A stretch of DNA of 28,541 nt from a virus, in the IMG/VR virus record IMGVR_UViG_3300025466_000137, positions 1-28,541 of that record, one strand, 5' to 3'. Below, in pieces: positions 2,286 through 22,960 of this stretch; within the stretch, counting starts at the first letter, position 1; each line of letters starts with the position of its first letter. The position numbers and the translations under genes are program-made. Under the pieces are notes generated by a model. That model was not told where the DNA came from. It did not search any database and saw nothing but the letters and a program-made list of their open reading frames with translations.

Positions 2286-2297
2286 AGGTGTATATAC
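2286..2297 (+). promoter_or_regulatory. Dispersed motif copy AGGTGTATATAC
   Basis: Plus-oriented copy of the phage-wide (A/G)GGTGT(A/C)TATA motif. It lies between the scaffold terminator and the capsid gene and directly abuts the TTGTAAA/TTTACAA dyad. A promoter for the capsid gene is expected here because a terminator closes the upstream unit. Confidence 0.5.
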
Positions 2298-2327
2298 TGG
2301 TCAACAAGTTTCAATCTGGACATCTAA

Positions 2328-2362
2328 AGAAAAACCCCCACCCCGATTGAAGGGTGAGGGTT
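2328..2362 (-). terminator. Rho-independent terminator after scaffold gene
   Basis: On the minus strand AACCCTCACCC (2362-2352) pairs with GGGTGGGGGTT (2343-2333) over 11 bp with one G-T wobble and an 8-nt loop, then runs into T residues. It starts about 20 nt after the scaffold stop codon. This is the strongest intrinsic terminator in the window and separates scaffold from capsid transcription. Confidence 0.8.
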
Positions 2363-2382
2363 CCTCAAGGTCGGACGAGCAA

Positions 2383-3339
2383 CTATCCGTTCTTGATCAA
2401 GTCTGCCACCATGCCGACCACTTCACGGTCACCTGCCACAAACCTCTGGTGGTAGGGGTTTTGGGGGTTACGCATGATGTCAATGCCACGTGCCTGACCT
2501 GCCATAAAGGTTGCTGTGGAATCTGAGGAAACGATCTTATCGTCACTGACCATCCGAGAAAACCTCTCTAGTGCCACAATGACGTTGGGATCACTCAGTC
2601 CCTTGCTATTGGGATCCAGTCCAGTGACCTGACAGGCACGTTTTACGACTGCCATGTTTGTCTCGTACTTCTCACCCCATGCTTGTTCTAGTGCCTTCTG
2701 CCCCTCGGTGTATTCCTTTTGGAGCACTTGAGCCTGTTCTTGGGCACGTGCAGCTTCCAAGGTTGCGTAGTATTTGACGGCCTCGGATGCCTGAGTGGGA
2801 GTCAATCCATTCTTGTGGGCAACCTCATTAAATCCCTTGATGACGTTGGAATCCAAGGTGACACCCTCTGGGATGCCATCTACCTTGGTCGGGTACTTGT
2901 CGGCACTTTCTGGGACTCCTCTTTTGGCATTGAATGCTGCCCATTCTTCCGGTGAGGACTTTTCGTTGGGCATGATGACGGCATCTGCCTTCTTCCCCAT
3001 CAGTCTCTGGAGGTTGATGTAGGATTTCGCTAGTGCCTCGTTGTTCTTAAACTGACCGAGGATCTGCTTGTCGTTGGCAAACTCGGCTGGGAGTCGGTCT
3101 AGCCAACCTTCGTTAAATTCCCCCTTTTCGTTGAGTGCCCACGGGTTCTCAGTCGATGAAGTTGGTGTCGTCGGGGAGGTAGTCCCTCCAGTTGTTTGAT
3201 CGAGTAGACTTCCGGTTCCGGTGGGGGTCGATGTCGTCGTACTCGTCGTGATCGGGTTCTCGACTGCTGTTTGTGCTGCCAGCAGTGCGTTGCCGTCTAC
3301 GGGAGTCACTGAGACTCCTTCTCCTGTGATGATGCTCAT
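2383..3339 (-). CDS. Scaffold (capsid assembly) protein
   Basis: 318 aa. The N-terminal ~65 residues are low-complexity Thr/Ser/Gly/Pro. The central part contains the pattern usual in podovirus scaffolds: W-L-D-R-LP-x-E, then a K-N-N-E-A-L-A-K-SYINLQRLMGKK helix, then IMPNEKSSPEEWAAF and a G-V-P-E-S-x-D-K-Y motif. It continues as a highly charged coiled-coil region (residues ~190-235, rich in E, Q, K, A). Scaffolds of this kind fill the procapsid and leave before DNA packaging. The position between portal and capsid genes supports the call. The ATG at 3339 overlaps the TAA of the upstream small gene (TAATG), which fixes the start. Confidence 0.82.
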   Translation of the reverse strand: MSIITGEGVSVTPVDGNALLAAQTAVENPITTSTTTSTPTGTGSLLDQTTGGTTSPTTPTSSTENPWALNEKGEFNEGWLDRLPAEFANDKQILGQFKNNEALAKSYINLQRLMGKKADAVIMPNEKSSPEEWAAFNAKRGVPESADKYPTKVDGIPEGVTLDSNVIKGFNEVAHKNGLTPTQASEAVKYYATLEAARAQEQAQVLQKEYTEGQKALEQAWGEKYETNMAVVKRACQVTGLDPNSKGLSDPNVIVALERFSRMVSDDKIVSSDSTATFMAGQARGIDIMRNPQNPYHQRFVAGDREVVGMVADLIKNG

Positions 3340-3566
3340 TAGGTTTCATGGGGTTGGGTGTTTGCTACAATGCCCAAAGGTGTATTGACACCTCTGGACA
3401 AAAATTCACTGTGCTCAAGGGGGGAGTGATTCTCCTTGTGCCACTGGATGTATGCTGGGGATCGGGTCACATCCGTGGACTCTTCAACCGTGGGTTGCTC
3501 ACTACTCTCGTTCACCGTAGGGTGCTCACTACTCTCGTTTTGCTTTCGTTTTCTTGGGTGCTTCAT
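3339..3566 (-). CDS. Hypothetical 75-aa hydrophilic protein
   Basis: MKHPRKRKQNESSEHPTVNE at the N-terminus, very charged and probably unstructured. It contains an imperfect internal repeat, NESSEHPTV then NESSEQPTV, encoded by a duplicated 15-bp sequence (3503-3517 and 3524-3538 region). The start lies 38 bp inside the end of the upstream 86-aa gene, and its stop overlaps the scaffold ATG (TAATG). No family is recognised. Residues near the C-terminus (RGVNTP) are encoded by a perfect dyad copy of the dispersed motif. The gene could be real and small, or a translated spacer that couples portal-region and scaffold expression. Confidence 0.5.
   Translation of the reverse strand: MKHPRKRKQNESSEHPTVNESSEQPTVEESTDVTRSPAYIQWHKENHSPLEHSEFLSRGVNTPLGIVANTQPHET
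3378..3393. promoter_or_regulatory. Dyad motif copy AGGTGTATTGACACCT
   Basis: Perfect 6-bp arms (AGGTGT/ACACCT) around a 4-bp centre, 38 nt upstream of the scaffold ATG and inside the preceding 75-aa frame. This is one of two perfect dyad versions of the dispersed motif, as expected of a binding site for a dimeric regulator. Confidence 0.5.
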
Positions 3567-3789
3567 GGGTTGCCTTGTAAGAAAGAGCTTTCATGTGGAG
3601 GTAGACCTGACGTTGACCGTCCCGTATTGCTGCCTTGATCGGGTCAAATGACCCGTCTGCACTCGGCACAAAGGCAGGGGCATTGATCCCAAAGACCTTT
3701 TCCAAGTGTTCCATGAGGGTGATGCCACTCTCCGTGGTCAGGATGCTGTATGCCTTGGTTTCTTTACTGATTGCCACAAACTCACTCAT
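3529..3789 (-). CDS. Small portal-associated hypothetical protein (86 aa)
   Basis: MSEFVAISKETKAYSILTTE start. The middle contains an F-G-I-N-A-P-A-F-V-P motif followed by D-P-I-K-A-A-I-R-D-G-Q-R-Q-V, and the tail is Lys-rich (APKKTKAKRE). Proteins of similar size and position between portal and scaffold genes are common in podovirus-type phages, but I cannot assign a function. The ATG overlaps the portal stop as ATGA, so it is translationally coupled to the portal. Its 3' end overlaps the next small gene by 38 bp. Confidence 0.7.
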   Translation of the reverse strand: MSEFVAISKETKAYSILTTESGITLMEHLEKVFGINAPAFVPSADGSFDPIKAAIRDGQRQVYLHMKALSYKATHEAPKKTKAKRE

Positions 3790-5561
3790 GACTGCTGGAT
3801 TCCTTTTTGGAGTTGCTGACCTACGGCACTCTGGGGATTGACGCTACCGAGTTGCTGGGCAATTTGTGCACCGTGTGCCTGTGCTTGTTGTTGTTGAGCC
3901 TGTGCCTGTGCTTGGGCACGTTGCTGCCTCATCTGGGCAATCTCGGCCTCACTTCTCAGGAAGTCTGGGTCACCTCCGTTTGCCAGTGCCTTTTCCCTGA
4001 CGATTTTATCAAAGTTAAAGTTATCTAGGATGGATTGGTCTTGGGTGACCTGCACGGTCTGAAGGGATTGGGAAACTGCTTCATCAATGGCACTGACACT
4101 CCGAGTAGCAATGGCAATGGACATCTTGTTATTGAAGATGACCTGAGGTTCTGGCAGGTATGCTTCACCACTTGCCGTAAATTGGATGAGTGCCTTGGGT
4201 GGAGGTGGGAAAAGACCTCGACGTGCTAGGATCCCATAGACCCTCTTGATGGTTGGGATGAGTAATTCCGTGGTGAGTCGGGAATAAGTCGGACTCAGCA
4301 TGGTCAACTTTTCACTTTCCATAGCACGGACTTGTGTTGCCGTGATGGGAGATCCCCCAGATCCCAGTTCTTCTTGGGCAAACATCTGGAACATGGGGAC
4401 ATTGAAAGCATCCTCAATGTGTTGCTGCTTCATCTTGATGCGATCCAGACCGACATCGTAACGACCTCCTGTTGCCCATTCACGTGGCATGGCAGAGGGG
4501 TCGGTAGCATTAAAGTAAGTGATGCCTCCTGCCGTGAGATCAGGTTCTCCGTTCATCCCTTCTGGGATCAGCAGTCGTGGGAAGGCAGTCAGTTCTGCCA
4601 ATGCGTCCATCTGCTTCTGGAGGAAGTTGACCTGCTTGGCATCAGGGAGTGCCACCCATGAGGGAGACCAACCGTAGACTCCGTGCTGCCACTTGAGGAA
4701 CCGAGAAATAAAGAAAGGTTGCTCGTCGTAACCGGAATCTCTCAGCACATGCTTGGAGGAACATTCCACGTGAACCGAGGCAAAGGGTTTGTTCTGTCCG
4801 TCCTTCTTGGTCTTGTCCCTCTGGTCATCTGTCCGTGGGTAGATGGCATGGATCATCTCCACCTTGTGCTCGTAGTTCTTGCCGTCACCGGAGTCGTACA
4901 TCTTCCTGACCTGCTCGGAGACGTTCTCAATGCCGTACTCCTCAACCAGTTGCCTCACGGTCATCTCCTTACGAATAAAAATCACGTCACAATACCCTTC
5001 GTTATTTTCACTGGCAGCAAAGGTGCCGAGGTCAAAGGTCTTGAACAGGAGGGGACAATAGGCACCGGAATCCACGTAGAGGGCAGCAGTCCCAAAGGCA
5101 CCACGGTCAAGGTGGCACTCGTGGATCGTGTTATAGAAATTGCTACGTGCTAGTTCCTCTAAGATGACCTCGGTGCAGTCGGCAAAGTATTCACTGACTC
5201 CCTCACCGTCTTCTAGGTTTTCCGGTGCTGCTAGTTGGCACCAAGCACTCCCTGCATCGTTGCAGTAGGACATGATCCCTGCTGCCATCGTCTGATTGGC
5301 ACGGACAGCAGTCGTGTCAAAGAGTTGGGTCTCACGGTCAAGGTTGGGTGAATACTGCTTATTGAGGATATACGACTTCCTTGGCATGACGTAGGTGGCA
5401 AGTTGCTGCCACATGCTCATCCAATAGTTGCGTTCCACGTCCAAAGATGACCACCTTGCCATGATCGATGCTGCTAGATCCGTCTTACCCATCTTCTTGC
5501 CCTTTTTGACAGGAGTGGGTGTATTGACACCCTTGGGTGCAGTGAGTTGGGTGTCTGCCAT
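3786..5561 (-). CDS. Portal (head-tail connector) protein
   Basis: 591 aa, the normal size for the podovirus head-to-tail connecting protein family (T7 gp8-like). Recognisable segments are the N-terminal helical part (SIMARWSSLDVERNYWMSMW, then LATYVMPRK), the D-T-T-A-V-R-A-N-Q-T-M-A-A-G-I-M region near residue 80, the I-S-R-F-L-K-W-Q-H-G-V-Y-G-W-S-P segment in the middle, and A-L-P-D-A-K-Q-V-N-F-L. The last ~60 residues are Gln/Ala-rich (QAQAQAQQQQAQAHGAQ), forming the flexible barrel end. The dodecameric portal sits at one capsid vertex and is the docking site for terminase and tail. It follows a Pro-rich small gene by 15 nt. Codons ~10-15 (KGVNTP) are written by a perfect dyad copy of the dispersed motif. 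Confidence 0.92.
   Translation of the reverse strand: MADTQLTAPKGVNTPTPVKKGKKMGKTDLAASIMARWSSLDVERNYWMSMWQQLATYVMPRKSYILNKQYSPNLDRETQLFDTTAVRANQTMAAGIMSYCNDAGSAWCQLAAPENLEDGEGVSEYFADCTEVILEELARSNFYNTIHECHLDRGAFGTAALYVDSGAYCPLLFKTFDLGTFAASENNEGYCDVIFIRKEMTVRQLVEEYGIENVSEQVRKMYDSGDGKNYEHKVEMIHAIYPRTDDQRDKTKKDGQNKPFASVHVECSSKHVLRDSGYDEQPFFISRFLKWQHGVYGWSPSWVALPDAKQVNFLQKQMDALAELTAFPRLLIPEGMNGEPDLTAGGITYFNATDPSAMPREWATGGRYDVGLDRIKMKQQHIEDAFNVPMFQMFAQEELGSGGSPITATQVRAMESEKLTMLSPTYSRLTTELLIPTIKRVYGILARRGLFPPPPKALIQFTASGEAYLPEPQVIFNNKMSIAIATRSVSAIDEAVSQSLQTVQVTQDQSILDNFNFDKIVREKALANGGDPDFLRSEAEIAQMRQQRAQAQAQAQQQQAQAHGAQIAQQLGSVNPQSAVGQQLQKGIQQS
5517..5532. promoter_or_regulatory. Dyad motif copy GGGTGTATTGACACCC
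   Basis: Perfect GGGTGT/ACACCC arms around ATTG, located in codons ~10-15 of the portal gene. Same architecture as the copy at 3378-3393; both are read as GVNTP in their genes, which suggests DNA-level constraint rather than shared protein function. Confidence 0.5.
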
Positions 5562-5576
5562 AATAATTGGGTGTGG

Positions 5577-5951
5577 TTACTTACCGAGGAGAGAACCGGA
5601 TGGTGGTGCTACTGCTTGGTTCTGGGTGTCTTGATTGCTTTGCAAGAGGGATGCCTTCATGCCAAATCCTTGTGATGCCTGTGCCCCTGCCATCTGTTGT
5701 GCTAGGGCAATATCCAAAGAGGAAGCCGATGGGGGTGGGGGAGGAACAGGTGCCTTGGGCATGGCAGGGATATTGATTATGGGTGCTGCTGGTGTCGGTG
5801 GGATATACGGAGTGCTGCCACCTCCTCCCTTGAAGTTAGCAAGGATTGGTTTATGAGGGAGGATAGGAGGTAACGGGACACCTCCTGCTAGTGCCATCTC
5901 TGGTAATAGGTACGAGACCAACCAACTTACGAAATCTATAACGTCATGCAT
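5577..5951 (-). CDS. Pro/Gly-rich hypothetical protein upstream of portal
   Basis: 124 aa from the ATG at 5951 (MHDVIDFVSWLVSYLLPEMA); a GTG at 5972 would add seven residues. The first ~20 residues are hydrophobic and could form a membrane segment or an amphipathic helix. The rest is low complexity: a GGGG stretch, IPPTPAAPIINIP, and PVPPPPP, followed by a Q/A/S-rich tail. It overlaps the end of the upstream 114-aa gene by 16 bp. Short Pro-rich proteins in this place between terminase and portal are seen in other short-tailed phages, without known function. A near-palindromic motif copy lies right before the ATG. Confidence 0.6.
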   Translation of the reverse strand: MHDVIDFVSWLVSYLLPEMALAGGVPLPPILPHKPILANFKGGGGSTPYIPPTPAAPIINIPAMPKAPVPPPPPSASSLDIALAQQMAGAQASQGFGMKASLLQSNQDTQNQAVAPPSGSLLGK

Positions 5952-6280
5952 TGGGTGTGTATACGCACCCACGGATAGATTCTCAACTTGTTTTTTCGTT
6001 CAAATGACACAAAGGGTAGGGGATAGGGTGCCGAGTCAAAGGCATCCCTAAGATGTCCAGAATACAGATACAAGTGCCAGCAGTCGGCATCTTGGAAGGT
6101 CACCCAAGGGTTGCAGATCCTTTCGTAGGTCGCATTTTGGCACACCGGACGTGCCATAAAGAAAAGGTCATCGTTACTGACAACGATCCCGTAAAGCAAA
6201 TGTGCCTCCAGATCCTCCCGAAATGTCCGTGGGCATGTCTCTTGCTGGTAGACTGCTGCTGCCCTTTGGACGGGTTTCAT
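5936..6280 (-). CDS. Conserved phage hypothetical protein after terminase
   Basis: 114 aa, MKPVQRAAAVYQQETCPRTF start, with aromatic-rich motifs HLLYGIVVSNDDLFFMARPV and D-A-D-C-W-H-L-Y-L-Y-S-G-H-L. Proteins of this type (an A-V-Y-x-x-E-x-C-x-R-T-F-x-E-D-L-E-x-H-L-x-x-G start, then a tryptophan-rich 'W-x-LY-x-x-G' core) are often found next to large terminase genes of podovirus-like phages. The role is unknown; an internal head protein or a packaging accessory is possible. The ATG overlaps the terminase stop as ATGA, so they are coupled. Confidence 0.7.
   Translation of the reverse strand: MKPVQRAAAVYQQETCPRTFREDLEAHLLYGIVVSNDDLFFMARPVCQNATYERICNPWVTFQDADCWHLYLYSGHLRDAFDSAPYPLPFVSFERKNKLRIYPWVRIHTQCMTL
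5953..5970. promoter_or_regulatory. Dyad motif copy GGGTGTGTATACGCACCC
   Basis: Near-palindrome one base upstream of the ATG at 5951, inside the end of the 114-aa gene. The arms are spaced two bases wider than in the perfect dyads, so it is a variant of the dispersed motif. Confidence 0.4.
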
Positions 6281-8813: not shown

Positions 8814-8818
8814 GGTGT

Positions 8819-8989
8819 TTATTTGTAGGTGATGACTGTTCGGGTTGCTTTCTTGAGCCTGACCTTTCCGTAGGGAGTTCGGTCTGACTTGAGATTCGGA
8901 AAATTGGCACGAAAAATAGGAAAGTTGTCTCGACGTGAGTCACCCTTACCGACTTGTTTCTCGGAGTGTTGAGTTCTTAAAACAGACAT
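8819..8989 (-). CDS. Small basic protein upstream of SSB (56 aa)
   Basis: Open frame MSVLRTQHSEKQVGKGDSRR to the end RTVITYK. It is rich in Lys and Arg, with no cysteines or membrane segment, and probably binds nucleic acid. It is the first gene of the leftward structural operon, with its ATG 30 nt downstream of a dispersed motif copy and an A/C-rich leader (CTTCCAAGACAACT). The stop is 5 nt before the SSB ATG. No family is recognised. Confidence 0.55.
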   Translation of the reverse strand: MSVLRTQHSEKQVGKGDSRRDNFPIFRANFPNLKSDRTPYGKVRLKKATRTVITYK

Positions 8990-9019: not shown

Positions 9020-9030
9020 GGGTGTCTATA
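9020..9030 (+). promoter_or_regulatory. Dispersed motif copy GGGTGTCTATA
   Basis: Plus-oriented copy 30 nt upstream of the minus-strand 56-aa gene, paired with an opposite copy 17 nt away. Confidence 0.5.
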
Positions 9031-9047: not shown

Positions 9048-9060
9048 CGTATATACACCC
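9048..9060 (-). promoter_or_regulatory. Dispersed motif copy GGGTGTATATACG
   Basis: Minus-oriented copy preceded by GACTCGT. The copy at 22945-22960 is preceded by the similar GAGTCAA, so conservation extends a little upstream of the core. Confidence 0.5.
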
Positions 9061-9263: not shown

Positions 9264-9653
9264 ATGACCACCACCACCTACACCGCAAACCATCAAGTCG
9301 TCACCGAATACTCAATGATGTTCTGGGCATACTATGATGGGGGATTTTCTTTCCCATGCACCCCCACTGGAGAGATTGAAGAACCTCAGTTTCCAGAGGG
9401 TCGAGCCAATCTTGCCAAGCTGCTCAACGGGGAGATCAGTTACACCCGTAAGGAATTACAGACCTCTATTCGTAGGTTTAGTCTTTGCTCCTGTGGAAGT
9501 GGCAAAACAGATCATTCTGTCTACGATGCCCGTGGCATCTTTGTTGCCAGTGCTTGCCCCAAGTGTGAAGACAAGGTAAAATCCACTTACCGTGCAGAGA
9601 TTTTTACCAACTCTGATTACGATTGTGATGAACTAGTAGATGCTGATTACTAA
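9264..9653 (+). CDS. Cys-rich hypothetical protein, plus-strand cassette gene 1
   Basis: 129 aa, MTTTTYTANHQVVTEYSMMF start. The C-terminal half has a CSCGSGKTDHSVYDARG segment and then SACPKCEDK, four cysteines in two close pairs that probably form a zinc ribbon, and an acidic tail (DYDCDELVDADY). It is the first gene of the only rightward operon, with an A/C-rich leader (CCACTAAAAATACAAGACC) and no Shine-Dalgarno sequence. The function is unknown. Its orientation opposite to all other genes suggests expression at a different time, for example during lysogeny. Confidence 0.7.
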   Translation: MTTTTYTANHQVVTEYSMMFWAYYDGGFSFPCTPTGEIEEPQFPEGRANLAKLLNGEISYTRKELQTSIRRFSLCSCGSGKTDHSVYDARGIFVASACPKCEDKVKSTYRAEIFTNSDYDCDELVDADY

Positions 9654-9672
9654 CCATCAACCGACCACGATA

Positions 9673-9879
9673 ATGACCAAACGTCAAATTAACCGTGCCA
9701 TCAAGCACCTCTACCTTGAGGTGCAGCATGAACGGGGGGCAGGGTATTGCTATTTTACCGGACTTACCACGGGGACAACCGTGGGGGAGTCTGTGATGGT
9801 CTGTTACCTTAACCAACTTACCCTTGAGCAGTGGGTGGATCGTGCCACCCAAGCATTGGAAGAAGGGGGAAACCTATGA
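9673..9879 (+). CDS. Hypothetical protein, plus-strand cassette gene 2 (68 aa)
   Basis: MTKRQINRAIKHLYLEVQHE start, 19 nt after the previous stop. It has a helical N-terminus, then an aromatic beta-like core (GAGYCYFTGLTTG), and a helical end (LTLEQWVDRATQALEE). The ATG at 9673 is preferred over an upstream ATG at 9640, which lies inside gene 1. It ends in ATGA overlap with gene 3. No family is recognised. Confidence 0.65.
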   Translation: MTKRQINRAIKHLYLEVQHERGAGYCYFTGLTTGTTVGESVMVCYLNQLTLEQWVDRATQALEEGGNL

Positions 9880-10226
9880 AAATTCGTATCACTAACCCCC
9901 ACGGAGGCAAATGCCCAAAGTGCAGCAAGCCTGTGCTTGCCATCCGCAACTACACAATGGGCGAGAGTCTGTATGTTCACGCAAATTATGAAAAGGACGG
10001 CATGCCACACATTGACGGGTGTTTTGTAAAGAAACCCAACCCCCACGGAGGTTCCCGCAAGGGTGCTGGCAGACCCAAAGGCACTACGAATCAGGTCAAG
10101 GTTCCCCACAGGGTCATCACCAAATCAGTTTCCATGACTTCCCCCGATTGGGATCGTTTTGATGCCCAGAAAGGCAGTCTTAGCAGGGGGGCATATATCG
10201 TATCGATCCTGCCCCAGTCACATTGA
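9876..10226 (+). CDS. Putative zinc-ribbon plus ribbon-helix-helix protein, cassette gene 3
   Basis: 116 aa. The N-terminus has GGKCPKCSKPVLAI (one CxxC, with a further Cys near residue 49). The middle carries GGSRKGAGRPKG, an AT-hook-like basic stretch common in phage and plasmid proteins that precede a ribbon-helix-helix domain. The C-terminus, HRVITKSVSMTSPDWDRFDAQ followed by SLSRGAYIVSIL, fits the beta strand and S-R-x-x-x-I helix of such a domain. It is therefore the only candidate DNA-binding regulator in the cassette. Its last 47 bp overlap, tail to tail, the end of the convergent PD-(D/E)XK gene. Confidence 0.65.
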   Translation: MKIRITNPHGGKCPKCSKPVLAIRNYTMGESLYVHANYEKDGMPHIDGCFVKKPNPHGGSRKGAGRPKGTTNQVKVPHRVITKSVSMTSPDWDRFDAQKGSLSRGAYIVSILPQSH

Positions 10227-10671
10227 TGTAAGCATTGGTCTTAATCACTTTCCCCCCGTTGATGCACTTGCTGGTCTCCGTACGTTCTAACCGTATTGGA
10301 GGCATCAAATCACCATTGTGATCGGCAATCTTGATGGTCAAAATGAGACCGTCTGGCACGAGGTACAGGAATCCGTAGAACGGGACACATAGAGATTTTG
10401 CAAGGTTGGCACCGTGTACGATTTTTTCGTAAGTCACCAACCACTCGTCCCCCCACTTGGAAAGTTGATCACGGGTCATTTGTCGGCACTTGCTTTCAAA
10501 GCACGAGGTGATCTCATTGTTTCGAATCGTAAACCCATCCACCTTGGAAGGGTTATGCTTAGGGGTATTGACAAACATACTGTCAGGAAAAGTGATCCGT
10601 AGTGAGTCGAGCATTTCCTGCTCCTCCCGTGCAGATTCCTGTCCTTTAGGGGTAAGAATATCAAGACTCAT
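10180..10671 (-). CDS. PD-(D/E)XK nuclease-like protein
   Basis: 163 aa. A restriction-endonuclease-like core is visible: K-V-D-G-F-T-I (Asp45), then a strand ending C-F-E-S-K-C (Glu59, Lys61) and Q-M-T-R-D-Q-L, with an N-terminal helix bearing Glu16/Glu17. This D...E-x-K arrangement is the catalytic pattern of the fold, although the overall sequence matches no family I can name. It is coupled to the helicase-loader gene by ATGA, so it belongs to the replication operon. Residues 34-37 (VNTP) are encoded by a degenerate copy of the dispersed motif. The 3' end overlaps the convergent cassette by 47 bp. Confidence 0.6.
   Translation of the reverse strand: MSLDILTPKGQESAREEQEMLDSLRITFPDSMFVNTPKHNPSKVDGFTIRNNEITSCFESKCRQMTRDQLSKWGDEWLVTYEKIVHGANLAKSLCVPFYGFLYLVPDGLILTIKIADHNGDLMPPIRLERTETSKCINGGKVIKTNAYINVTGAGSIRYMPPC
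10561..10576. promoter_or_regulatory. Weak motif copy AGGGGTATTGACAAAC
   Basis: Degenerate relative of the dyad copies at 3378 and 5517 (shared GTATTGACA), inside the PD-(D/E)XK gene. Listed with low confidence. Confidence 0.2.
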
Positions 10672-12810: not shown

Positions 12811-13145
12811 TTGAAGTCCTCCTTAACCCAAGCACCCTTACTCCGAGTGATCCCTCGGAAGATAAAATAAGGGAAGAGGGATGCTGCCACCTTGATCTTC
12901 ACCCGTGCGTCATCCTCCCAATATCCCTTGGTCTCGTGCAGTTCCACCGTTCCATCCTTCATGATGACCAAGAAATCCGGTGAATAGGTTGTCCGATCTG
13001 CCAACTTCAGCTTGATTCCTTCAAACTTGTAATCATGCACGTCTCCACCCGTAACGAGCAGGTCAAGGTAGGAAGAATAGGCTGCCTCCAGTTTGTTCAT
13101 GACACCTGCCACGTGGTTGGTTCTCACTCGTGCTCGAAATCTCAT
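12807..13145 (-). CDS. DUF1064 nuclease-like protein
   Basis: 112 aa. The pattern N-K-L-E-A-A-Y (Glu20), then K-L-A-D-R-T-T-Y-S-P-D-F (Asp57), then V-E-L-H-E-T-K-G (Glu71, Lys73) is the PD-(D/E)XK core of DUF1064, a phage family thought to act as endonucleases or Holliday junction resolvases. The tail (ASLFPYFIFRGITR) matches the last core strand. It is well placed between recombination and replication genes to process joint molecules. Both ends are ATGA-coupled to neighbours. Confidence 0.82.
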   Translation of the reverse strand: MRFRARVRTNHVAGVMNKLEAAYSSYLDLLVTGGDVHDYKFEGIKLKLADRTTYSPDFLVIMKDGTVELHETKGYWEDDARVKIKVAASLFPYFIFRGITRSKGAWVKEDFK

Positions 13146-13339
13146 TCAACCTCCTCGTCTGGAAGTTCAACTGCTGCTAAGTAAGTTCCCTCTGGAATCT
13201 CCAAATAGAAACCCATGTCGCGGCACCCGTTCAGATACCCAAATAGGTATCTCTCTTCCGGTGTCGGGCACCTGCCACCTTCTAGGTGACGTACCCCTTC
13301 AGTCTCCCAACTCTCCTCTGCCATCTTTTTAATAGTCAT
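13142..13339 (-). CDS. Hypothetical protein (65 aa)
   Basis: MTIKKMAEESWETEGVRHLE start, acidic overall, with a C-P-T-P-E-E-R-Y-L-F-G-Y-L-N-G-C-R-D-M-G-F centre. No family is recognised. It heads the replication operon: its ATG is preceded by three ACCAA-type repeats and, 21 nt upstream, by a motif copy. The stop overlaps the DUF1064 start. Confidence 0.6.
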   Translation of the reverse strand: MTIKKMAEESWETEGVRHLEGGRCPTPEERYLFGYLNGCRDMGFYLEIPEGTYLAAVELPDEEVE

Positions 13340-13360: not shown

Positions 13361-13372
13361 TTATATACACCT
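13361..13372 (-). promoter_or_regulatory. Dispersed motif copy AGGTGTATATAA
   Basis: Fills most of the 31-bp gap between two minus-strand genes; the TAG stop of the upstream gene overlaps its first bases. Located 21 nt before the ATG at 13339. Confidence 0.55.
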
Positions 13373-15657: not shown

Positions 15658-15669
15658 TCTATACACCTT
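15658..15669 (-). promoter_or_regulatory. Dispersed motif copy AAGGTGTATAGA
   Basis: Minus-oriented copy in the 129-nt gap between excisionase and the 27-codon gene, 35 nt before its ATG. The gap holds no other feature I can support and must contain the recombination-operon promoter. Confidence 0.55.
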
Positions 15670-15751: not shown

Positions 15752-15949
15752 TTACGCATTGCCTTCAACGAGTTGATCCAAATCGGAAACCTTAATGAGA
15801 CGGCATGCACCCACCGTGTAACTCTTGAGGGATCCCGACTTGACGAGTTGGTAAATCATTTCACGTGTGACCGAGATGCGTTGTGCAGCCTCCAGTGGTC
15901 GGAGGTACTTGGGTTCTGTATAGACACCCTTGGGCAAAGTTTTTGACAT
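15752..15949 (-). CDS. xis: Excisionase-type helix-turn-helix protein
   Basis: 65 aa from the ATG at 15949. The region KYLRPLEAAQRISVTREMIYQLVKSG is split by the usual pattern of the 'excisionase family' MerR-like winged HTH: L-R-P-L-E-A-A-x-x-I-x-V-T-R-x-x-I-Y-x-L-V-x-x-G, then L-K-S-Y-T-V-G-x-x-R-L-I-K-V-S-D-L-D. Such proteins bend attachment-site DNA and steer integrase to excision. ATG 15949 follows an A/C-rich leader; an ATG at 16015 would add a low-complexity Asn/Thr stretch and overlap the upstream gene. Codons 7-12 (KGVYTE) are encoded by a motif copy. Confidence 0.8.
   Translation of the reverse strand: MSKTLPKGVYTEPKYLRPLEAAQRISVTREMIYQLVKSGSLKSYTVGACRLIKVSDLDQLVEGNA
15916..15931 (-). 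promoter_or_regulatory. Dispersed motif copy AAGGGTGTCTATACAG
   Basis: Copy in codons ~7-12 of the excisionase gene. A regulator bound here would block transcription right after the start, as in the portal-gene copy. Confidence 0.45.
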
Positions 15950-15971: not shown

Positions 15972-16148
15972 TTATTCACGGGGTTTGTATTTGTGTGGGT
16001 AGCGTTTGATTTCATCAAGGATAGGACGTTTCAAATAATCGGATACGGACATTCCAATCCGAGATGCAAGCATGACCAGAATTGTATCCTCTTCCTCCGT
16101 GACCCAGAATGTACGGAGCTTTTTTCCTTTCTGACGTTGATTAGCCAT
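15972..16148 (-). CDS. Small ribbon-helix-helix-like protein (58 aa)
   Basis: MANQRQKGKKLRTFWVTEEE start. L-R-T-F-W-V-T could be the DNA-reading strand, and E-E-D-T-I-L-V-M-L-A-S-R-I-G followed by S-V-S-D-Y-L-K-R-P-I-L the two helices, like the RHH domains of mobilisation and Arc-type proteins. Its place between integrase and excisionase suggests a regulator or recombination cofactor. A motif copy lies 18 nt before its ATG, so it may be regulated by the phage-wide system or, conversely, be part of it. It is separated by 72 nt from the preceding 53-aa gene. Confidence 0.6.
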   Translation of the reverse strand: MANQRQKGKKLRTFWVTEEEDTILVMLASRIGMSVSDYLKRPILDEIKRYPHKYKPRE

Positions 16149-16166: not shown

Positions 16167-16179
16167 CCTATAGACACCT
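16167..16179 (-). promoter_or_regulatory. Dispersed motif copy AGGTGTCTATAGG
   Basis: Minus-oriented copy 18 nt before the RHH-like gene ATG (16148). Confidence 0.5.
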
Positions 16180-16220: not shown

Positions 16221-16382
16221 TTAGAGGCAACTGGTGGAAGAATGCTCGGTTAATGCTTCTTCAGCTAGATCCACAATCGAAAGGATCGTATCACCATCAA
16301 TGTCAGGGTCTTCCTGACCTAGTTGCACAAGTGCATGTAATTGTTCTTTTGTGAAACTGATCGTGTATTGGGGATGTGACAT
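16221..16382 (-). CDS. Acidic hypothetical protein (53 aa)
   Basis: MSHPQYTISFTKEQLHALVQ start, then D-P-D-I-D-G-D-T-I-L-S-I-V-D-L-A-E-E-A. It is a short, acidic, mostly helical protein with no recognised family. It follows the integrase by about 70 nt with a plus-oriented motif copy between. A GTG start at 16403 would add seven residues. Confidence 0.5.
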   Translation of the reverse strand: MSHPQYTISFTKEQLHALVQLGQEDPDIDGDTILSIVDLAEEALTEHSSTSCL

Positions 16383-16411: not shown

Positions 16412-16424
16412 GGGTGTCTATATA
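16412..16424 (+). promoter_or_regulatory. Dispersed motif copy GGGTGTCTATATA
   Basis: Plus-oriented copy in the gap between the integrase stop and the 53-aa gene, 29 nt before its ATG, inside an AT-rich stretch. Confidence 0.5.
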
Positions 16425-17477: not shown

Positions 17478-17574
17478 GACCAGTCACAGATCACATAGTT
17501 GTGAATTGGTGTCAAGTAGTCTGTTTACACTGATAAACAGGGATTGTAGGGGTTTTTTGCTCTACAGAGAAAAA

Positions 17575-17600
17575 TGGCGGTGAGGCAGGGATTCGAACCT
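17575..17600 (-). other. attP: attP core: tRNA-Ser 3'-end copy
   Basis: The minus strand reads AGGTTCGAATCCC, then TGCCTCACCGCCA. That is the T-loop, the 3' half of the T-stem, the acceptor strand CCTCACC, discriminator G and CCA. The acceptor would pair with GGTGAGG, the 5' end typical of tRNA-Ser. Upstream bases do not complete the T-stem, so it is not a tRNA gene. Phage genes on both sides identify it as attP rather than attL or attR. Confidence 0.82.
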
Positions 17601-17617: not shown

Positions 17618-17650
17618 AAAGTGTGACCAAAAACTATACAGTCACACTTT
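17618..17650. terminator. 10-bp perfect hairpin near attP
   Basis: AAAGTGTGAC (17618-17627) and GTCACACTTT (17641-17650) with a 13-nt loop. It lies 43 nt after the metallopeptidase stop and could end lysis-operon transcription before attP, but no T-run follows on the minus strand. It may instead be an integrase-associated dyad, since its arm contains the CAGTCAC repeat. Confidence 0.4.
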
Positions 17651-17661
17651 GGGTGTATATG
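17651..17661 (+). promoter_or_regulatory. Dispersed motif copy GGGTGTATATG
   Basis: Plus-oriented copy directly abutting the 10-bp hairpin in the attP region. Confidence 0.45.
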
Positions 17662-17692
17662 TCTCTGTAGGATTTTGCCCCAACCCTCGGTG

Positions 17693-17953
17693 TCAAGAAT
17701 ATATTCTTCTCCATCCATCAGACCATAACACCGATGCCATTCGTTGGGCAATTTTGATTACAGTTTCCTCGTCGGCATCCGGTAAAATAACATGCGTCAA
17801 TTCGTGCAAAACGGTGTCCAATCGTTGTTGGGAGGTTTGGTTTGGATCAATCTCAATATGAGGAATTTTCCCCTGCCAACATAACCCCATTGCCCGTTCC
17901 TTTCCCAATTTCCGTTCAGTGATCCGAATCTTCCGAGGAAGTGCTACTTTCAT
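17693..17953 (-). CDS. Mini HExxH metallopeptidase (86 aa)
   Basis: Begins MKVALPRKIRITERKLGKER. The centre is R-L-D-T-V-L-H-E-L-T-H-V-I-L-P-D-A with the zinc motif HELTH at residues 50-54, and acidic residues at 61-63 (D-E-E) as possible third ligands. It is a minimal gluzincin-like fold with a strand-helix core and little else. Similar very short HExxH proteins (L-x-H-E-L-x-H-x-x-x-P-x-x-x-E-x-x-V) occur in phages and are often grouped with SprT or ImmA/IrrE-like peptidases; their substrates are unknown. The ATG is coupled to the endolysin stop (ATGA), so it is expressed with lysis genes. Confidence 0.75.
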   Translation of the reverse strand: MKVALPRKIRITERKLGKERAMGLCWQGKIPHIEIDPNQTSQQRLDTVLHELTHVILPDADEETVIKIAQRMASVLWSDGWRRIYS

Positions 17954-18486
17954 GCAAATGCCTTGATTGCCTCGTTCCTGTTGAGCCAACCCGTAAGAAA
18001 CCTAGCACGTGATCCGTGTCCGATCTCCTCGTAGTGTGCTCGTCCAAGGTCAATTAGACGCAATGAGAGGTCGTGCTGGTCAGTTTGCCATGCTGCCCTC
18101 ATCGTGTTGTCTCCTAAAATGCCATCCGCAATTATAGGGGATCCTAGTGCCGTCTGGAGTAATTTTATGGCAGTCTCTTTACCCATGTTTAAGCCATAGT
18201 TTGCCGTAATTTCGGCAACGGATAAGGGCAGACCAGCGAAAGGTAACCAATACTTCCGATAGTAAATCTCTACAATAAAGTTGGGACTTGGTGTTCCCGT
18301 TAGTGGCAATCCGTCCGATTGAGAAGTTAAACCTGCAAATGTTCTACCTTGTCCGTCCGATAGGTATTCATCTTTGATATTCCCGTGGGGATCGGTTTCA
18401 ACCTCCCATTTCAACATAAGAGACAACCAATTATTAAAGACAGCAGACTTGTCTTGGGCTGCATCCAAAATATCTTTGATCTTCAT
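17950..18486 (-). CDS. Endolysin, GH108-like N-acetylmuramidase
   Basis: 178 aa. The N-terminal domain has L-S-L-M-L-K-W-E-V-E-T-D-P-H-G (catalytic Glu28 expected), then G-R-T-F-A-G-L-T-S near 47-55, and I-V-E-I-Y-Y-R-K-Y-W around 71-80, matching the order of motifs in GH108 muramidases (E-G-x-x-x-D, FGI, IYxxxYW). The second part (N-Y-G-L-N-M-G-K-E-T-A-I-K-L-L-Q-T-A-L, then A-D-G-I-L-G-D-N-T) is the associated peptidoglycan-binding domain. There is no signal peptide, so it depends on a holin for export. It is ATGA-coupled to small membrane genes on one side and the metallopeptidase on the other. Confidence 0.88.
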   Translation of the reverse strand: MKIKDILDAAQDKSAVFNNWLSLMLKWEVETDPHGNIKDEYLSDGQGRTFAGLTSQSDGLPLTGTPSPNFIVEIYYRKYWLPFAGLPLSVAEITANYGLNMGKETAIKLLQTALGSPIIADGILGDNTMRAAWQTDQHDLSLRLIDLGRAHYEEIGHGSRARFLTGWLNRNEAIKAFA

Positions 18487-19165: not shown

Positions 19166-19177
19166 TTTGTAGATATA

Positions 19178-19339
19178 TCAATGGGATTTTAACCACTCGG
19201 TGACCACGACTGCTTTGGCATCAAGACGATCTGAAATCACTGATGCTTTGGCTAGGTACTGATCGGAGGTAGTAGCCACGGAAGAAGTTGTGTGTATACA
19301 CCCTGAGAGTAAAAAAAAGAGTGGGATCAAGTATTTCAT
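19178..19339 (-). CDS. Small lipoprotein (53 aa), outer spanin candidate
   Basis: The frame reads MKYLIPLFFLLSGCIHTTSS, a textbook lipoprotein signal with lipobox L-S-G-C (Cys14), then a 39-residue mature part ending VVVTEWLKSH. The ATG overlaps the previous stop as ATGA, and its size and place in the lysis cassette resemble Rz1-type outer spanins, though it lacks their proline richness. If correct, the host is Gram-negative. Codons 13-16 are encoded by a motif copy. Confidence 0.7.
   Translation of the reverse strand: MKYLIPLFFLLSGCIHTTSSVATTSDQYLAKASVISDRLDAKAVVVTEWLKSH
19291..19303 (-). promoter_or_regulatory. Dispersed motif copy GGGTGTATACACA
   Basis: Copy inside the lipoprotein gene, with GTGTATACAC as a perfect 10-bp palindrome. 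Unlike the other in-gene copies it is read in a different codon frame. Confidence 0.4.
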
Positions 19340-19569
19340 TTTGACTGTTCCAAGTGGGATTGAATGGCAATCACGTCTGATTGCAACCTGTCCAACATCT
19401 GAGTTTTCACCCCTGCCACGTAAACGGTAATAAAGATTTGAATAATGACTGCTGCACCAATCGTTTTGAGCATTGAACTATTTCCTTGGGCTGCTCGACC
19501 TCGTTCTTCAACAATGGCACGAAGGGTAGCAATATCTTCCCTCAATGAGGCAACTTCATCTGCACTCAT
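19336..19569 (-). CDS. Small bitopic membrane protein (77 aa)
   Basis: From the coupled ATG at 19569: MSADEVASLREDIATLRAIV, an N-terminal coiled coil, then one transmembrane helix (IGAAVIIQIFITVYVAG, about residues 37-53), and a second helical part (QMLDRLQSDVIAIQSHLEQ). With the lipoprotein encoded in the next overlapping gene, this could be the inner-membrane spanin; XhlA-like holin accessory is an alternative. No family call is secure. Confidence 0.62.
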   Translation of the reverse strand: MSADEVASLREDIATLRAIVEERGRAAQGNSSMLKTIGAAVIIQIFITVYVAGVKTQMLDRLQSDVIAIQSHLEQSK

Positions 19570-19919
19570 GATGAAGCGTTCCAATTAAGAATATCTTCAT
19601 TCCAATCATACATTTTACCATCAGATGGGTAGGCAACCGGAGGATTCCAAAGATAGGTAGATTCATCTAAAATCCAACTTGGGAAAGGTTTAGGTGCATA
19701 AAAGCCAACTCCATCCCAAGAATAACCAATCCCAGCATAATTCTTGTTAAGAGCAGTTCCTCCATCAGGATTGCCATCTTGTCCATAGTGAATTCCACCT
19801 CTAGTATTAAAAGAGGTTTGAATCCATTCAGATGCGTTCGGAAGAGATTGAATATAATCTGATTCAGCAACAATTACTTGATCTACTAATCCTTTAATAA
19901 TGTGAGCAAAATGTGCCAT
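19566..19919 (-). CDS. Conserved structural-type phage protein (117 aa)
   Basis: MAHFAHIIKGLVDQVIVAES start and a dense set of motifs: W-I-Q-T-S-F-N-T-R-G-G-I-H-Y, then D-G-N-P-D-G-G-T-A-L, then K-N-Y-A-G-I-G-Y-S-W-D, then F-P-S-W-I-L-D-E-S-T-Y-L-W-N-P-P and P-S-D-G-K-M-Y-D-W-N-E. I recall near-identical domain patterns from marine and cyanobacterial phages, where the gene lies near tail genes and is thought to be a fibre-associated or capsid-decorating protein. It directly follows the adhesin gene (1 nt gap). A/T-rich codon choice matches the adhesin and differs from genes further left and right. Confidence 0.75.
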   Translation of the reverse strand: MAHFAHIIKGLVDQVIVAESDYIQSLPNASEWIQTSFNTRGGIHYGQDGNPDGGTALNKNYAGIGYSWDGVGFYAPKPFPSWILDESTYLWNPPVAYPSDGKMYDWNEDILNWNASS

Positions 19920-19920
19920 A

Positions 19921-20826
19921 TTATGCTTTGTAATAAAGTGTTGTTAAAAATGCAATAATTGTATTAGAACCATTAAGAATTTTTGTATATTGAGTTCCCT
20001 GTGTTGCTGAAGTTGTTCCATTTGTAGTAATATTGGAATCTCCAGAATAATTTGCATTCGGGATGGATAAAACAACAATTCCAGAACCTCCAGAACCTCC
20101 AGTTGATGCTCCTCCAGCACCACCACCACCACCACCTGTATTAGCTATACCAGAAGTTCCATTGGCATTGGTATTACCTTTTCCACCACCACCACCACCA
20201 CCATTACCTCCAGTTCCAGCAGTACCTGAAGAACTATAATTTGCACCACCACCACCACCAGCAAGATAATATGTTGTGGAAACTAGTTGTCCTGCCGTTG
20301 ATCCAGTAATGGGATTAGCAAGTCCAATTCCACCAGATCCAGAAATAAGAGTTCCTCCATTACCGCCAACTGCTCCTGCACCACCACCACCAGCAGCAGG
20401 ATAGTTATTTGCTGTTGCCGTTGAAAATCCTCCATTATTGCCTTGCCCAGAAGGAGTTGCTAATCCTCCAATACCTGTAGATCCAGAAGAACCTCCTCCA
20501 CCACCAGAACCACCATTACTGCCATTAGCTGCTCCACTTCCCCCTGCACCACCACCACCATACGAAACAAACGATGCAAACGAAGTATTACTTCCAGTAT
20601 AACCAATGGTAGTACCACCATTTCCTCCACCTCCTATTGTTATAAGATAGGAAGTTCCTACTGTTAAATTTGAATTTCCTGTTAAAAACCCTCCTGCTCC
20701 ACCACCACCACCATCAGATGCACCACCACCACCACCTCCAGCAACTATTAAATAAGCAGTTGGATAAGAAATCGCAAATGATGCGGATTTCCTACCAATC
20801 TCAGTGCCTAATCCGAGTTGTGGCAT
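19921..20826 (-). CDS. Glycine-rich receptor-binding adhesin
   Basis: 301 aa. After a short N-terminus (MPQLGLGTEIGRKSASFAIS), Y-L-I-V-A-G-G-G-G-G-G-A-S-D opens a glycine-rich domain that runs to about residue 250 with many runs of 4-8 Gly. It ends with G-I-V-V-L-S-I-P-N-A-N-Y and a beta-rich tail (TKILNGSNTIIAFLTTLYYK). This is the known 'Gly-rich domain' of phage tails; in S16 gp38 such stretches fold as polyglycine-II helices that carry receptor-binding loops. Here it probably forms the exchangeable tip of the fibre. Codons are more A/T-rich at third positions than in neighbours, suggesting acquisition. Confidence 0.78.
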   Translation of the reverse strand: MPQLGLGTEIGRKSASFAISYPTAYLIVAGGGGGGASDGGGGGAGGFLTGNSNLTVGTSYLITIGGGGNGGTTIGYTGSNTSFASFVSYGGGGAGGSGAANGSNGGSGGGGGSSGSTGIGGLATPSGQGNNGGFSTATANNYPAAGGGGAGAVGGNGGTLISGSGGIGLANPITGSTAGQLVSTTYYLAGGGGGANYSSSGTAGTGGNGGGGGGGKGNTNANGTSGIANTGGGGGGAGGASTGGSGGSGIVVLSIPNANYSGDSNITTNGTTSATQGTQYTKILNGSNTIIAFLTTLYYKA

Positions 20827-20829
20827 GTT

Positions 20830-21093
20830 CTAGGTAGTGTAAGCAATGACCTTTCCTGAGACTAAGGTAAGAGTTGTAAATACCCCATAAATCACTGTCC
20901 CTGCTGGAAAGGTAACTCCAGTTAAGGAATCTCCGGTCAAGTTACCAACATACTTGGTAGAATCGGTGACGTTGAGGACAGCATCAGCAATGACTTGCAC
21001 GGCATAGAAGTTGCCAGTGTATGTCGTTGTGCCAGAAATAAACTTTCCACCACCACCACCGGAATCAAAAGGGTTACGGATATACATGCTCAT
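20830..21093 (-). CDS. Small tail-associated hypothetical protein (87 aa)
   Basis: MSMYIRNPFDSGGGGGKFIS start, then V-Q-V-I-A-D-A-V-L-N-V-T and T-F-P-A-G-T-V-I-Y-G-V-F-T-T-L-T-L-V-S-G-K-V-I-A-Y. The beta-rich 'G-T-V-I-x-G-x-F-T-x-x-x-L-x-S-G-x-V-I-A-Y' ending recurs in small proteins of phage fibre operons and may be a fibre-tip or trimer-forming domain. Lies between a short fibre-like gene and the adhesin. Confidence 0.65.
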   Translation of the reverse strand: MSMYIRNPFDSGGGGGKFISGTTTYTGNFYAVQVIADAVLNVTDSTKYVGNLTGDSLTGVTFPAGTVIYGVFTTLTLVSGKVIAYTT

Positions 21094-21105
21094 GGTAATG
21101 TGCGA

Positions 21106-21531
21106 TTAGGGGTTGGTAAGGGTGCTAGCAACTTTTTCAGAAAAGTTTTCTTTCTGAGTGTTTTGGGGGTTTGAGACTGAAGGGTGATCCGTGGAATAAA
21201 CTCCATCGATTGGGCAACCACGATCATTCCACCTACGAAGAATGTCGTTAGACATGTCTTTAGGGTAAGAAGTAGAAACCGAAATTGCCGAGGTCGTGGG
21301 CACTGCTGCCGTGATAGCAATCGTGGCACTCGTCACAATTCCATCATTGGTCGTGTCGGTCACCGTGTAGGCACTGCTATTAAGCGTTGTTGCGATTCCC
21401 GTGGAGGTCACCACGGTAGCTACAATCAAGTCAGAATCCTTGATAAAAGGGTAAGGGAAAGTAACAGTCTGACCTGCCGTGTTTGTCCCCGTGACGAGGA
21501 TCTGATTGTTAGGGAATGGATCTAATGACAT
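21106..21531 (-). CDS. Short fibre-type protein (141 aa)
   Basis: From the ATG at 21531: MSLDPFPNNQILVTGTNTAG. The section T-V-T-F-P-Y-P-F-I-K-D-S-D-L-I-V-A-T-V, then N-S-S-A-Y-T-V-T, resembles the N-terminal virion-anchoring domain of T7-like fibres and has the same layout as the start of the larger fibre next door. It ends after a polar C-terminus (K-D-M-S-N-D-I-L-R-R-W-N-D-R-G). It could be an anchor that joins the adhesin to the tail, or a duplicated fibre stub. The upstream ATG at 21573 is not used here since it lies inside the previous gene. Confidence 0.65.
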   Translation of the reverse strand: MSLDPFPNNQILVTGTNTAGQTVTFPYPFIKDSDLIVATVVTSTGIATTLNSSAYTVTDTTNDGIVTSATIAITAAVPTTSAISVSTSYPKDMSNDILRRWNDRGCPIDGVYSTDHPSVSNPQNTQKENFSEKVASTLTNP

Positions 21532-21548
21532 GTGGTGTTGGGTTGGGG

Positions 21549-22928
21549 TTAATTGCCATAAACGACAAGACATGCCGTGTTGGGGTTTTGTGCTGTTCCG
21601 GTAGAATCCAAAAAGTTTACTTCCACACTATTGGTTTTGACGTAGGTAGCAGCAGCACCTGCATTGATGACTGAAAAAGCATTATTGGATGCACCTTGAC
21701 CTGTTACTAAGACGGCATAATTGGCATCTGCCATTGGGGTGGAAAAGTTGACCACAAAATCTCCACCTGCAATTTTTGCTACCGAGGACACATTGTAGCT
21801 ACTTCTAATGGGGCATGCTTGGAACGTGATGGCATTGGCATTTAGTGCCGTAGTTGCCACTGTGGTAATGGCAAACGTAGTCGTGGTCGGTGGTGGGCTT
21901 GCCAAGACAATATAGGCACCAGCAACGACACCGGAGGCAGCATAGACGGTGCTTCCTGCTACAAGGTTATGAGCATTCGTCGTAGTAATGGTTGCCGTGG
22001 TGCTTCCAGCAGTTCGAGAAACTGTAGATGTGCCACCTGCCCATGAAGACGTGGACGATCCGTCAAAATTGCACCATGCTTTGGAAGTGATTTTGGAAAG
22101 GGTGGAAGATGTTTGAGGTGCTGATGCCGTTGCTGCATTGCCGGTACAGGTGGAGGCCGTTGTTGCCGTGACTGCATTCCCAGAGCAAGCAGCAGCAGTC
22201 GTTGCTGTGGCAGCAGTAGTTGCCGTGTCTGCATTGCCTGTGACATTTCCGGTCAGGTTGCCAGTGACATTGCCTGTGACATTTCCGGTCAGGTTGCCAG
22301 TGACATTGCCAGTCAAATTGCCAATGAACCCTGCCAGACCCGTGACGGCAGCAGCAAATGACCATCCAGTGTTGGTTGATGTGGTCAGGTTGCTTGGAGC
22401 AACCGATCCAGCACCAATAGATACCGTGGAAGGGTTGAGCCACTGCAAGGCACCGGATACCAAAGAAAGTGTCCAAGTTCCGGTAGTAGGAGTGGAAGGC
22501 AAAGCAGAAATGTCGGCTGCTGTATCCGAGCCTCGGACGCATTTTCCCAAACCACGTTTTAGTTGCTGGCAAAGTTGGGTGATTTTGTCAAACGATGCCT
22601 CAATCGTTGCAGCAGGGAGACGATCTCCCGTGGTGTAGGAGGTGAGTTGGGTGTAATCGACGTTACGAGCAATGGTCAACGTGGAGGTGGCAGGGATAGC
22701 ATCGTAAACCGTAATGGATCCAGTTGTTCCAGAACCTCCCGTTAAGGTATATTTTCCAGAAGATAAAGTTCCTGTGGTTTGGTATAATGGAACAACATTA
22801 AAATTAGCGTCCGTGGTATAGACAGAAAGTTCCGTTGCCAGATTAAACGGAAAGTCCACGACATACGTTGCCCCTGCAACGGCAGTGCCAGTATAGGTGT
22901 GGGAAGATATGTTGGTTGAAAGGGACAT
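21549..22928 (-). CDS. Tail fibre protein
   Basis: 459 aa. Residues ~1-130 are a T7 gp17-like anchoring domain (A-T-Y-V-V-D-F-P-F-N-L, then S-S-G-K-Y-T-L-T-G, I-T-V-Y-D-A-I-P, S-F-D-K-I-T-Q-L-C-Q-Q-L-K-R-G). Residues ~200-240 hold tandem G-N-(L/V)-T repeats, likely a rigid fibre shaft. The C-terminal part (S-K-A-W-C-N-F-D-G, then S-Y-N-V-S-S-V-A, and F-V-V-N-F-S-T-P-M-A-D-A-N-Y-A-V) is the compact beta head found at fibre ends. It is the first gene of the fibre operon, with a motif copy 16 nt before its ATG. Confidence 0.85.
   Translation of the reverse strand: MSLSTNISSHTYTGTAVAGATYVVDFPFNLATELSVYTTDANFNVVPLYQTTGTLSSGKYTLTGGSGTTGSITVYDAIPATSTLTIARNVDYTQLTSYTTGDRLPAATIEASFDKITQLCQQLKRGLGKCVRGSDTAADISALPSTPTTGTWTLSLVSGALQWLNPSTVSIGAGSVAPSNLTTSTNTGWSFAAAVTGLAGFIGNLTGNVTGNLTGNVTGNVTGNLTGNVTGNADTATTAATATTAAACSGNAVTATTASTCTGNAATASAPQTSSTLSKITSKAWCNFDGSSTSSWAGGTSTVSRTAGSTTATITTTNAHNLVAGSTVYAASGVVAGAYIVLASPPPTTTTFAITTVATTALNANAITFQACPIRSSYNVSSVAKIAGGDFVVNFSTPMADANYAVLVTGQGASNNAFSVINAGAAATYVKTNSVEVNFLDSTGTAQNPNTACLVVYGN
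22233..22316. repeat. 36-bp tandem repeat in fibre gene
   Basis: The unit beginning ATTGCCTGTGACATTTCC at 22233 recurs at 22269 after 36 bp, followed by a partial third unit. It encodes tandem four-residue G-N-L/V-T units of the fibre shaft. Such repeats allow length change by slippage. Confidence 0.7.
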
Positions 22929-22944
22929 CTCGTGGAATCTTTTA

Positions 22945-22960
22945 GTCTATATACACCCTT
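22945..22960 (-). promoter_or_regulatory. Dispersed motif copy AAGGGTGTATATAGAC
   Basis: The core of the 44-bp gap between the giant virion protein and the fibre gene, 16 nt before the fibre ATG, on the same strand as the gene. Confidence 0.6.

Follow-up and report, generated by a model that had tools for sequence, protein, structure and literature searches.

The 28,541-base tailed-phage fragment IMGVR_UViG_3300025466_000137, which as a whole we call the window, encodes a portal or head-tail connector, a terminase, a capsid protein, an integrase, an Erf-type recombinase and a helicase loader, with nearly all of its genes on the minus strand. Clustered at its gene boundaries are copies of a short element, GGTGTMTATA (M being A or C), and beside the integrase lies the gene of a 58-residue ribbon-helix-helix protein, RHH1, which we regard as the likely reader of this element. 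The complete form of the phage is a second IMG/VR record, 3300004770_000003 (G001; 36,021 bases with a 120-base terminal repeat), in which the window sequence was found, circularly permuted, at every 40-base probe tested. The relatives used below are also IMG/VR records, labelled G0xx, with L0xx labels used as well (L077, for example, is G003); their portals are 95% (G002), 73% (G003 and G007) and 65% (G008) identical to that of the window, and 55-58% in the case of G010 and G012. Megablast of the window against a phage collection gave no match, the best matches in a portal search for cultured relatives were only about 28% identical, and among the bacterial genomes searched none was confirmed to encode the portal or RHH1.

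Conserved copies of a dyad-derived element

The initial annotation had listed by eye 15 positions of the motif (A/G)GGTGT(A/C)TATA, and after checking all of them 14 proved genuine, while the one at 10561, with three mismatches, is unsupported. GGTGTMTATA is exact at 2286, 9020, 9048, 13361, 15916, 16167, 16412 and 22945; the copies at 3378 and 5517 are exact dyads, the annotation having rightly described some copies as perfect dyads; and those at 5953, 15658, 17651 and 19291 carry one mismatch. The motif stands far above chance expectation, with 37 matches to RGGTGTMTATA (at most two mismatches) against 15.75 +/- 3.87 in dinucleotide shuffles, none of 100 of which reached 37, and with eight zero-mismatch copies in the window against none of the reversed pattern. 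It is also kept in related phages (nine copies in G002, eight in G003 and seven each in G007 and G008), the reversed-pattern control giving 0 in every record, and its TATA form is absent from the relatives with 55-58% identical portals. Two of the outcomes named initially as refuting the motif, a density equalled by controls and a lack of conservation in related phages, were thus looked for and not observed. The sites and the candidate reader gene are as follows.

2287-2296, plus strand: site GGTGTATATA, 170 nt before the major capsid gene (1166-2116); in G012 and G010 dyads precede the capsid gene by 125-131 nt
3379-3392, no strand: perfect dyad GGTGTATTGACACC ahead of gene 2383-3339; G002 and G003 also have a dyad here, and G007 and G008 one with a single mismatch
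5518-5531, no strand: perfect dyad GGTGTATTGACACC, 25 nt ahead of the probable start of the portal gene; orthologous dyad in G002, G003, G007, G008 and G010
5953-5970, no strand: near-dyad GGGTGTGTATACGCACCC directly before the ATG of gene 5577-5951; GGGTGTGTATAGACACCC in G002
9021-9030, plus strand: site GGTGTCTATA, inverted partner of the 9050 site in a divergent region; kept in G002
9050-9059, minus strand: site GGTGTATATA ahead of gene 8819-8989; the complete dyad is present here in G003 and G007
13362-13371, minus strand: site GGTGTATATA upstream of gene 13142-13339; orthologues in G002, G003, G007 and G008
15658-15667, minus strand: weak site GGTGTATAGA, one mismatch
15919-15928, minus strand: site GGTGTCTATA at the 5' end of the HTH_17 (excisionase-like) gene; orthologous full dyad in G007 and G008
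15972-16148, minus strand: RHH1, 58-residue ribbon-helix-helix protein (MANQRQKGKKLRTFW...), candidate cognate autoregulated repressor, beside the integrase
16169-16178, minus strand: site GGTGTCTATA, candidate autoregulatory operator 20 nt before the ATG of RHH1; conserved in position in G002, G003, G007, G008 and G031
16413-16422, plus strand: site GGTGTCTATA, facing against transcription, ahead of gene 16221-16382; reversed orientation also in G002 and G007
17652-17661, plus strand: one-mismatch site GGTGTATATG upstream of the integrase; kept in G002
19289-19302, no strand: dyad TGTGTGTATACACC with a single mismatch, within the lysis region; in G002 it is the perfect dyad GGTGTGTACACACC
22948-22957, minus strand: site GGTGTATATA, 20 nt before the tail-fibre gene (21549-22928); orthologues in G002, G003, G007 and G008, perfect dyad in G012

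Judged from sequence comparison, the window motif is a variant of an inverted repeat of 14 bp, GGTGT-N4-ACACC. When all 5-mer half-sites with spacers of 0-12 were ranked by enrichment per genome, this dyad came first in G001, G002, G003, G007, G010 and G012 and second in G008; in the seven motif-free genomes G013, G015, G020, G024, G025, G026 and G029 it did not appear among the enriched dyads. There are seven perfect dyads in G012 and six in G010, with the spacers GCAT, GCAA, GCGT or GCAG and without TATA, the element in these two phages reading GGTGTGCATACACC or GGTGTGCGTACACC. In the window clade, the element takes two forms, namely perfect dyads with assorted spacers, of which each genome has three or four, and, in most copies, an asymmetric form, AGGTGTATATAC, made of one half plus a fixed spacer. 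Placed on the dyad frame, this asymmetric form reads GGTGT, then (A/C)TAT, then A, with C as the next base in 22 of 30 sites; the second half has lost its outer CACC and mostly kept its inner A-C. The asymmetric sites have a marked orientation, 29 lying along transcription against 4 in the opposite sense (G001, G003, G008 and G031 pooled). A de novo dyad search in the motif-free relatives gave no convincing substitute element, and a repeat of G013 considered as such was rejected, being a coding tandem array.

The clustering of copies at gene boundaries, also claimed initially, was borne out, given that 10 of the 13 sites of G001 lie at most 60 nt upstream of a homology-supported start, against 9.6% of random positions; in six genomes together, related ones whose sites are not fully independent, 34 of 62 sites lie within 60 nt of such a start against 5.8 expected. 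The 36-kb genome has 13-14 sites, and orthologous sites head the same genes across the relatives (tail fibre, portal, 2383-3339, RHH1, HTH_17, 13142-13339, 8819-8989 and 5577-5951), with the capsid-gene site 125-170 nt upstream of its gene. The distances from site to start range from -5 to >100 nt; there are sites in G003 and G007 that extend over the predicted start codon, and conserved sites that face backwards. Between the operator and the capsid gene, G003, G007, G010, G012, G019 and G030 also share a strongly conserved non-coding block (GAAGGATAACCAATCTTTCGGCCCATGTAGG...GACCCG) in the leader 125-170 nt ahead of that gene, which may be a structured leader RNA.

Selection at the level of DNA had been proposed from copies read inside genes as GVNTP, GVNTP and GVYTE. 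These peptides are real, but they come from copies situated where the end of an upstream gene overlaps the next one, or in N-terminal extensions that precede the conserved start; the portal, for instance, probably starts at MGKTDL, 25 nt after its dyad. The proposal nevertheless holds, since the same DNA is read in G010 in another frame (RVYAH), which argues for selection on the DNA. Orthologous sites are more alike in the core (identity 0.93-0.94) than in the flanks (0.78-0.85), a comparison on which we place little weight because the pairs were chosen for carrying the motif.

RHH1 and its association with the dyad

RHH1 is classed as a ribbon-helix-helix protein by Pfam, by structure-profile search and, more tentatively, by predicted fold. 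Its Pfam match is NikA-like (1e-5), and within its family 6 of 13 members match NikA-like and 4 of 13 RHH_1. A profile search of solved structures (PDB) returned AvtR, ORF56, ParG, CopG, CdbA, NikA and Arc. The AlphaFold model has a pLDDT (predicted local distance difference test) of 86, with helices 18-31 and 35-49 above 90 and the strand unpaired in the monomer, and its Foldseek matches in the PDB, mostly ribbon-helix-helix, include NikA, ParG, PutA, Arc, CopG and SvtR among the best. By sequence as well as by fold, the matches are thus mostly ribbon-helix-helix DNA-binding proteins, many of them repressors; a search of phage and plasmid collections with RHH1 gave no significant match. In G003 (L077) and in L078/L079, the gene directly preceding RHH1 contains short tandem repeats of a GGAAC unit.

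Tracked among the relatives by iterated profile searches, RHH1 is present in G000, G001, G002, G003, G007, G008 and G012, that is, in every complete motif-bearing relative, and was not found in the seven motif-free genomes. Searching IMG/VR with RHH1 alone gained phages that the portal search had missed, and the portals of three of them (G033, G035 and G039) are just 21-28% identical. In most of the phages gained in this way an exact GGTGT dyad lies within about 100 nt upstream of RHH1, with a spacer of N4 in G033, G035 and G036/G037, N3 in G038 and N2 in G039/G040, and L101/L102 have an imperfect GGTGT dyad with a 3-bp spacer at RHH1. Dispersed dyads, four or five in number and with a spacer of 2 bp, occur in G034 and L093. 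The half-site of G037 has become GGTG(G/T), and GGTG-N6-CACC heads the enriched dyads there (13 copies, 2.6 being expected); G038 has five copies of GGTG-N5-CACC in 9.6 kb, and L101 also has the N5 form; the element therefore changes along with the RHH1 lineage. Altogether GGTGT-N2-4-ACACC occurs 39 times in 409 kb from 13 RHH1-positive records, whereas for nine permuted half-sites the counts averaged 2.1 and never exceeded 5; in 238 kb of RHH1-negative relatives the count is 0. The RHH1-positive set, being gathered by RHH1, tests the dyad in RHH1 phages and not RHH1 in all dyad phages. One further repeat, CACACACTCC, present six times in each of G039 and G040 (L115-L119) and always on the strand opposite RHH1, was set aside as not clearly site-like.

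Proposed silencing by RHH1 and the alternatives

We consider it likely that the dispersed copies are operators of RHH1 as an autoregulated Arc/NikA-like repressor whose full target is GGTGT-N4-ACACC. The initial annotation had offered a repressor bound at dispersed sites as one of two readings, and this one is strengthened and sharpened by the co-occurrence with RHH1 and by the dyads lacking TATA. That RHH1 binds the dispersed sites is strongly suggested by this co-occurrence, and the site in its own leader, seen in the window clade and five further lineages, suggests that it would control its own gene. RHH1 would also bind the sites heading most early and late transcription units and would silence the prophage globally, preventing initiation at those sites that overlap a promoter and probably hindering elongation at the others, as L5 stoperators do; this elongation block is put forward by analogy. 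Repression is favoured over activation because of the own-leader position, the placement of sites at or just before starts, and the nature of ribbon-helix-helix proteins. As to lysogeny, RHH1 appears to be the best candidate for the lysogenic repressor, since the integrase adjoins it and no classical CI-like or HTH_3 repressor was found among the window genes scanned against Pfam.

Several observations weigh against this interpretation. The window RHH1 scores 26 bits against a Pfam cut-off of 27, its family scoring near or below the curated cut-offs, and all Foldseek E-values are above 0.3. G010 has the dyads on a 25.7-kb contig without the RHH1 region. No site lies within 260 nt upstream of RHH1 in G012, nor within 130-150 nt in G034 and L093. 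In G033, G035, G039 and G040 there are one or two dyads each, the genome-wide spread being thus not universal. Another, unrecognised protein could also be the lysogenic repressor.

The alternative that survives best, although we hold it to be unlikely, is that RHH1 does bind the sites but as an activator or temporal regulator of lytic growth instead of a lysogenic repressor. The sites precede early and late genes alike, and known viral ribbon-helix-helix factors can serve to time particular genes, as in SIRV1, whose SvtR is thought to delay late tail-fibre expression (PMC5569661); a position at or just before the start codon is, however, a poor one for an activator, and the two points that recommend RHH1 as lysogenic repressor, the adjoining integrase and the lack of another classical repressor among the window genes scanned, count against this alternative.

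A good deal less credible is the other initial reading, in which the motif would be a promoter element, a TATA-type -10 used by the host polymerase or by a phage-specific factor. The motif does contain TATA, lies mostly along transcription and often 15-40 nt before a start; but the homologous elements of G012 and G010 are dyads without TATA, which argues against a promoter, and the start-overlapping and backward-facing sites fit it poorly. No conserved block lies at a fixed upstream distance, in keeping with the initial remark that a fixed -35 box is missing, and the link with RHH1 would be left unexplained. Sigma region 4 (PF04545) was not detected, with the controls working, and the search for a single-subunit RNA polymerase (PF00940) gave no match, its control search being likewise silent.

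We find it very improbable that a neighbouring regulator is the reader, with RHH1 merely travelling along. HTH_17 (15752-15949) adjoins RHH1 and has a site at its 5' end, and the AT-hook/RHH2 protein (9831-10226) had been proposed initially, together with RHH1, for binding experiments. Of these two proposals, RHH1 stands as the likely cognate regulator; RHH2 was rejected, as it occurs in most motif-free relatives, and so was HTH_17, which occurs in the motif-free G015 and G020. In the phages found through RHH1, moreover, dyads accompany it even without a BLAST match to HTH_17 or RHH2. Least credible of all is that the copies act on translation or mRNA without any repressor, like the start-associated sequences of cluster K mycobacteriophages, as their tight link to start codons and preferred orientation might suggest, because those sequences lie at a fixed short distance before starts, whereas here the distances vary, one site stands well before the capsid gene, the element shows dyad symmetry, its spacers differ between lineages, some copies are reversed, and it occurs together with a DNA-binding protein.

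For RHH1 as repressor, we can further propose, more tentatively and with rather more doubt than confidence, that a ribbon-helix-helix repressor evolved stoperator-like silencing independently: some RHH1 phages would keep one or two dyads at the repressor locus, in others the site would have spread to most starts, and in one clade the dyad would have decayed to a directional half-site with a fixed TATA spacer, blocking polymerase from one side.

Relation to known systems and neighbouring genes

Dispersed operators of lysogenic repressors are also found as the conserved inverted repeats of phiC31, which are dyads, and as the asymmetric C1 operators of P1, whose repressors and motifs are unrelated to those described here. 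The closest likeness in layout is to the stoperators of cluster A mycobacteriophages (L5, Bxb1, TipsytheTRex), short dispersed sites near gene starts and mostly along transcription, an orientation that in L5 is required for the elongation block (PMC6550527, PMC9283540). As in cluster A, there are here many short sites in short intergenic spaces, oriented with transcription, and the motif varies between related phages (PMC6550527, PMC9283540). L5, in contrast, has 20-30 sites of 13-14 bp without dyad symmetry, against about 13-14 sites derived from a 14-bp dyad, perfect dyads coexisting here with the oriented ones, and its repressor is a monomer with a helix-turn-helix (HTH) and a stoperator domain, a combination found in none of the window proteins scanned, against a 58-residue ribbon-helix-helix candidate. 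The SPBRE element of Bacillus phage SPbeta is likewise the dispersed operator of a prophage master repressor, MrpR, but this has a tyrosine-recombinase fold, a 15-bp motif and no relation to RHH1 in sequence or fold (PMC10516654). The window system is therefore not a member of the L5 or MrpR families, its candidate regulator being unrelated to either.

SvtR of SIRV1, AvtR, F55 of SSV1 and Arc of P22 are, as RHH1, small virus-encoded ribbon-helix-helix regulators, and SvtR represses its own gene and binds further sites in the viral genome (PMC5569661). The archaeal-virus regulators have few targets (in the case of SvtR, its own promoter and three other sites) and different motifs, and no genome-wide set at most starts. 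In the literature searched, of limited coverage, we found no description of a bacteriophage ribbon-helix-helix repressor with genome-wide oriented operators. The comparison suggests a genome-wide off-switch that arose separately from that of the mycobacteriophages, where dispersed stoperators have so far mainly been characterised, with one repressor family. If this is true, a second, unrelated repressor would have the same directional genome-wide layout, and prophage silencing of this kind would arise repeatedly. The RHH1 family would then provide a natural series (local dyad, dispersed dyads, oriented half-sites, with spacers of 2, 3 and 4 bp) suited to the study of how operators spread through a genome and how specificity changes in a tiny repressor, and with a protein of 58 residues and sites of 12-14 bp the key tests are simple.

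Directly upstream of the integrase, at 17574-17600, there is a tRNA 3' end (reverse complement ...GGTTCGAATCCCTGCCTCACCGCCA, tRNA-Ser-like), which is probably the attP core and thus suggests a temperate phage integrating at a tRNA gene. Near the lysis genes, at 17693-17989 on the minus strand, lies an IrrE/ImmA-like M78 metallopeptidase (Pfam PF06114) with a HELTH motif; in other systems, ImmA-type proteases can inactivate phage repressors. The minus-strand stretch 22973-28366 is a fragment of a 2,411-residue protein, complete in G001, which had no match in Pfam or PHROG and carries a HELWH zinc-protease-like motif. The last gene of a three-gene plus-strand block (9264-10226) is that of AT-hook/RHH2, and the block is inverted relative to G003 and G007, where the RHH2 gene sits on the common strand.

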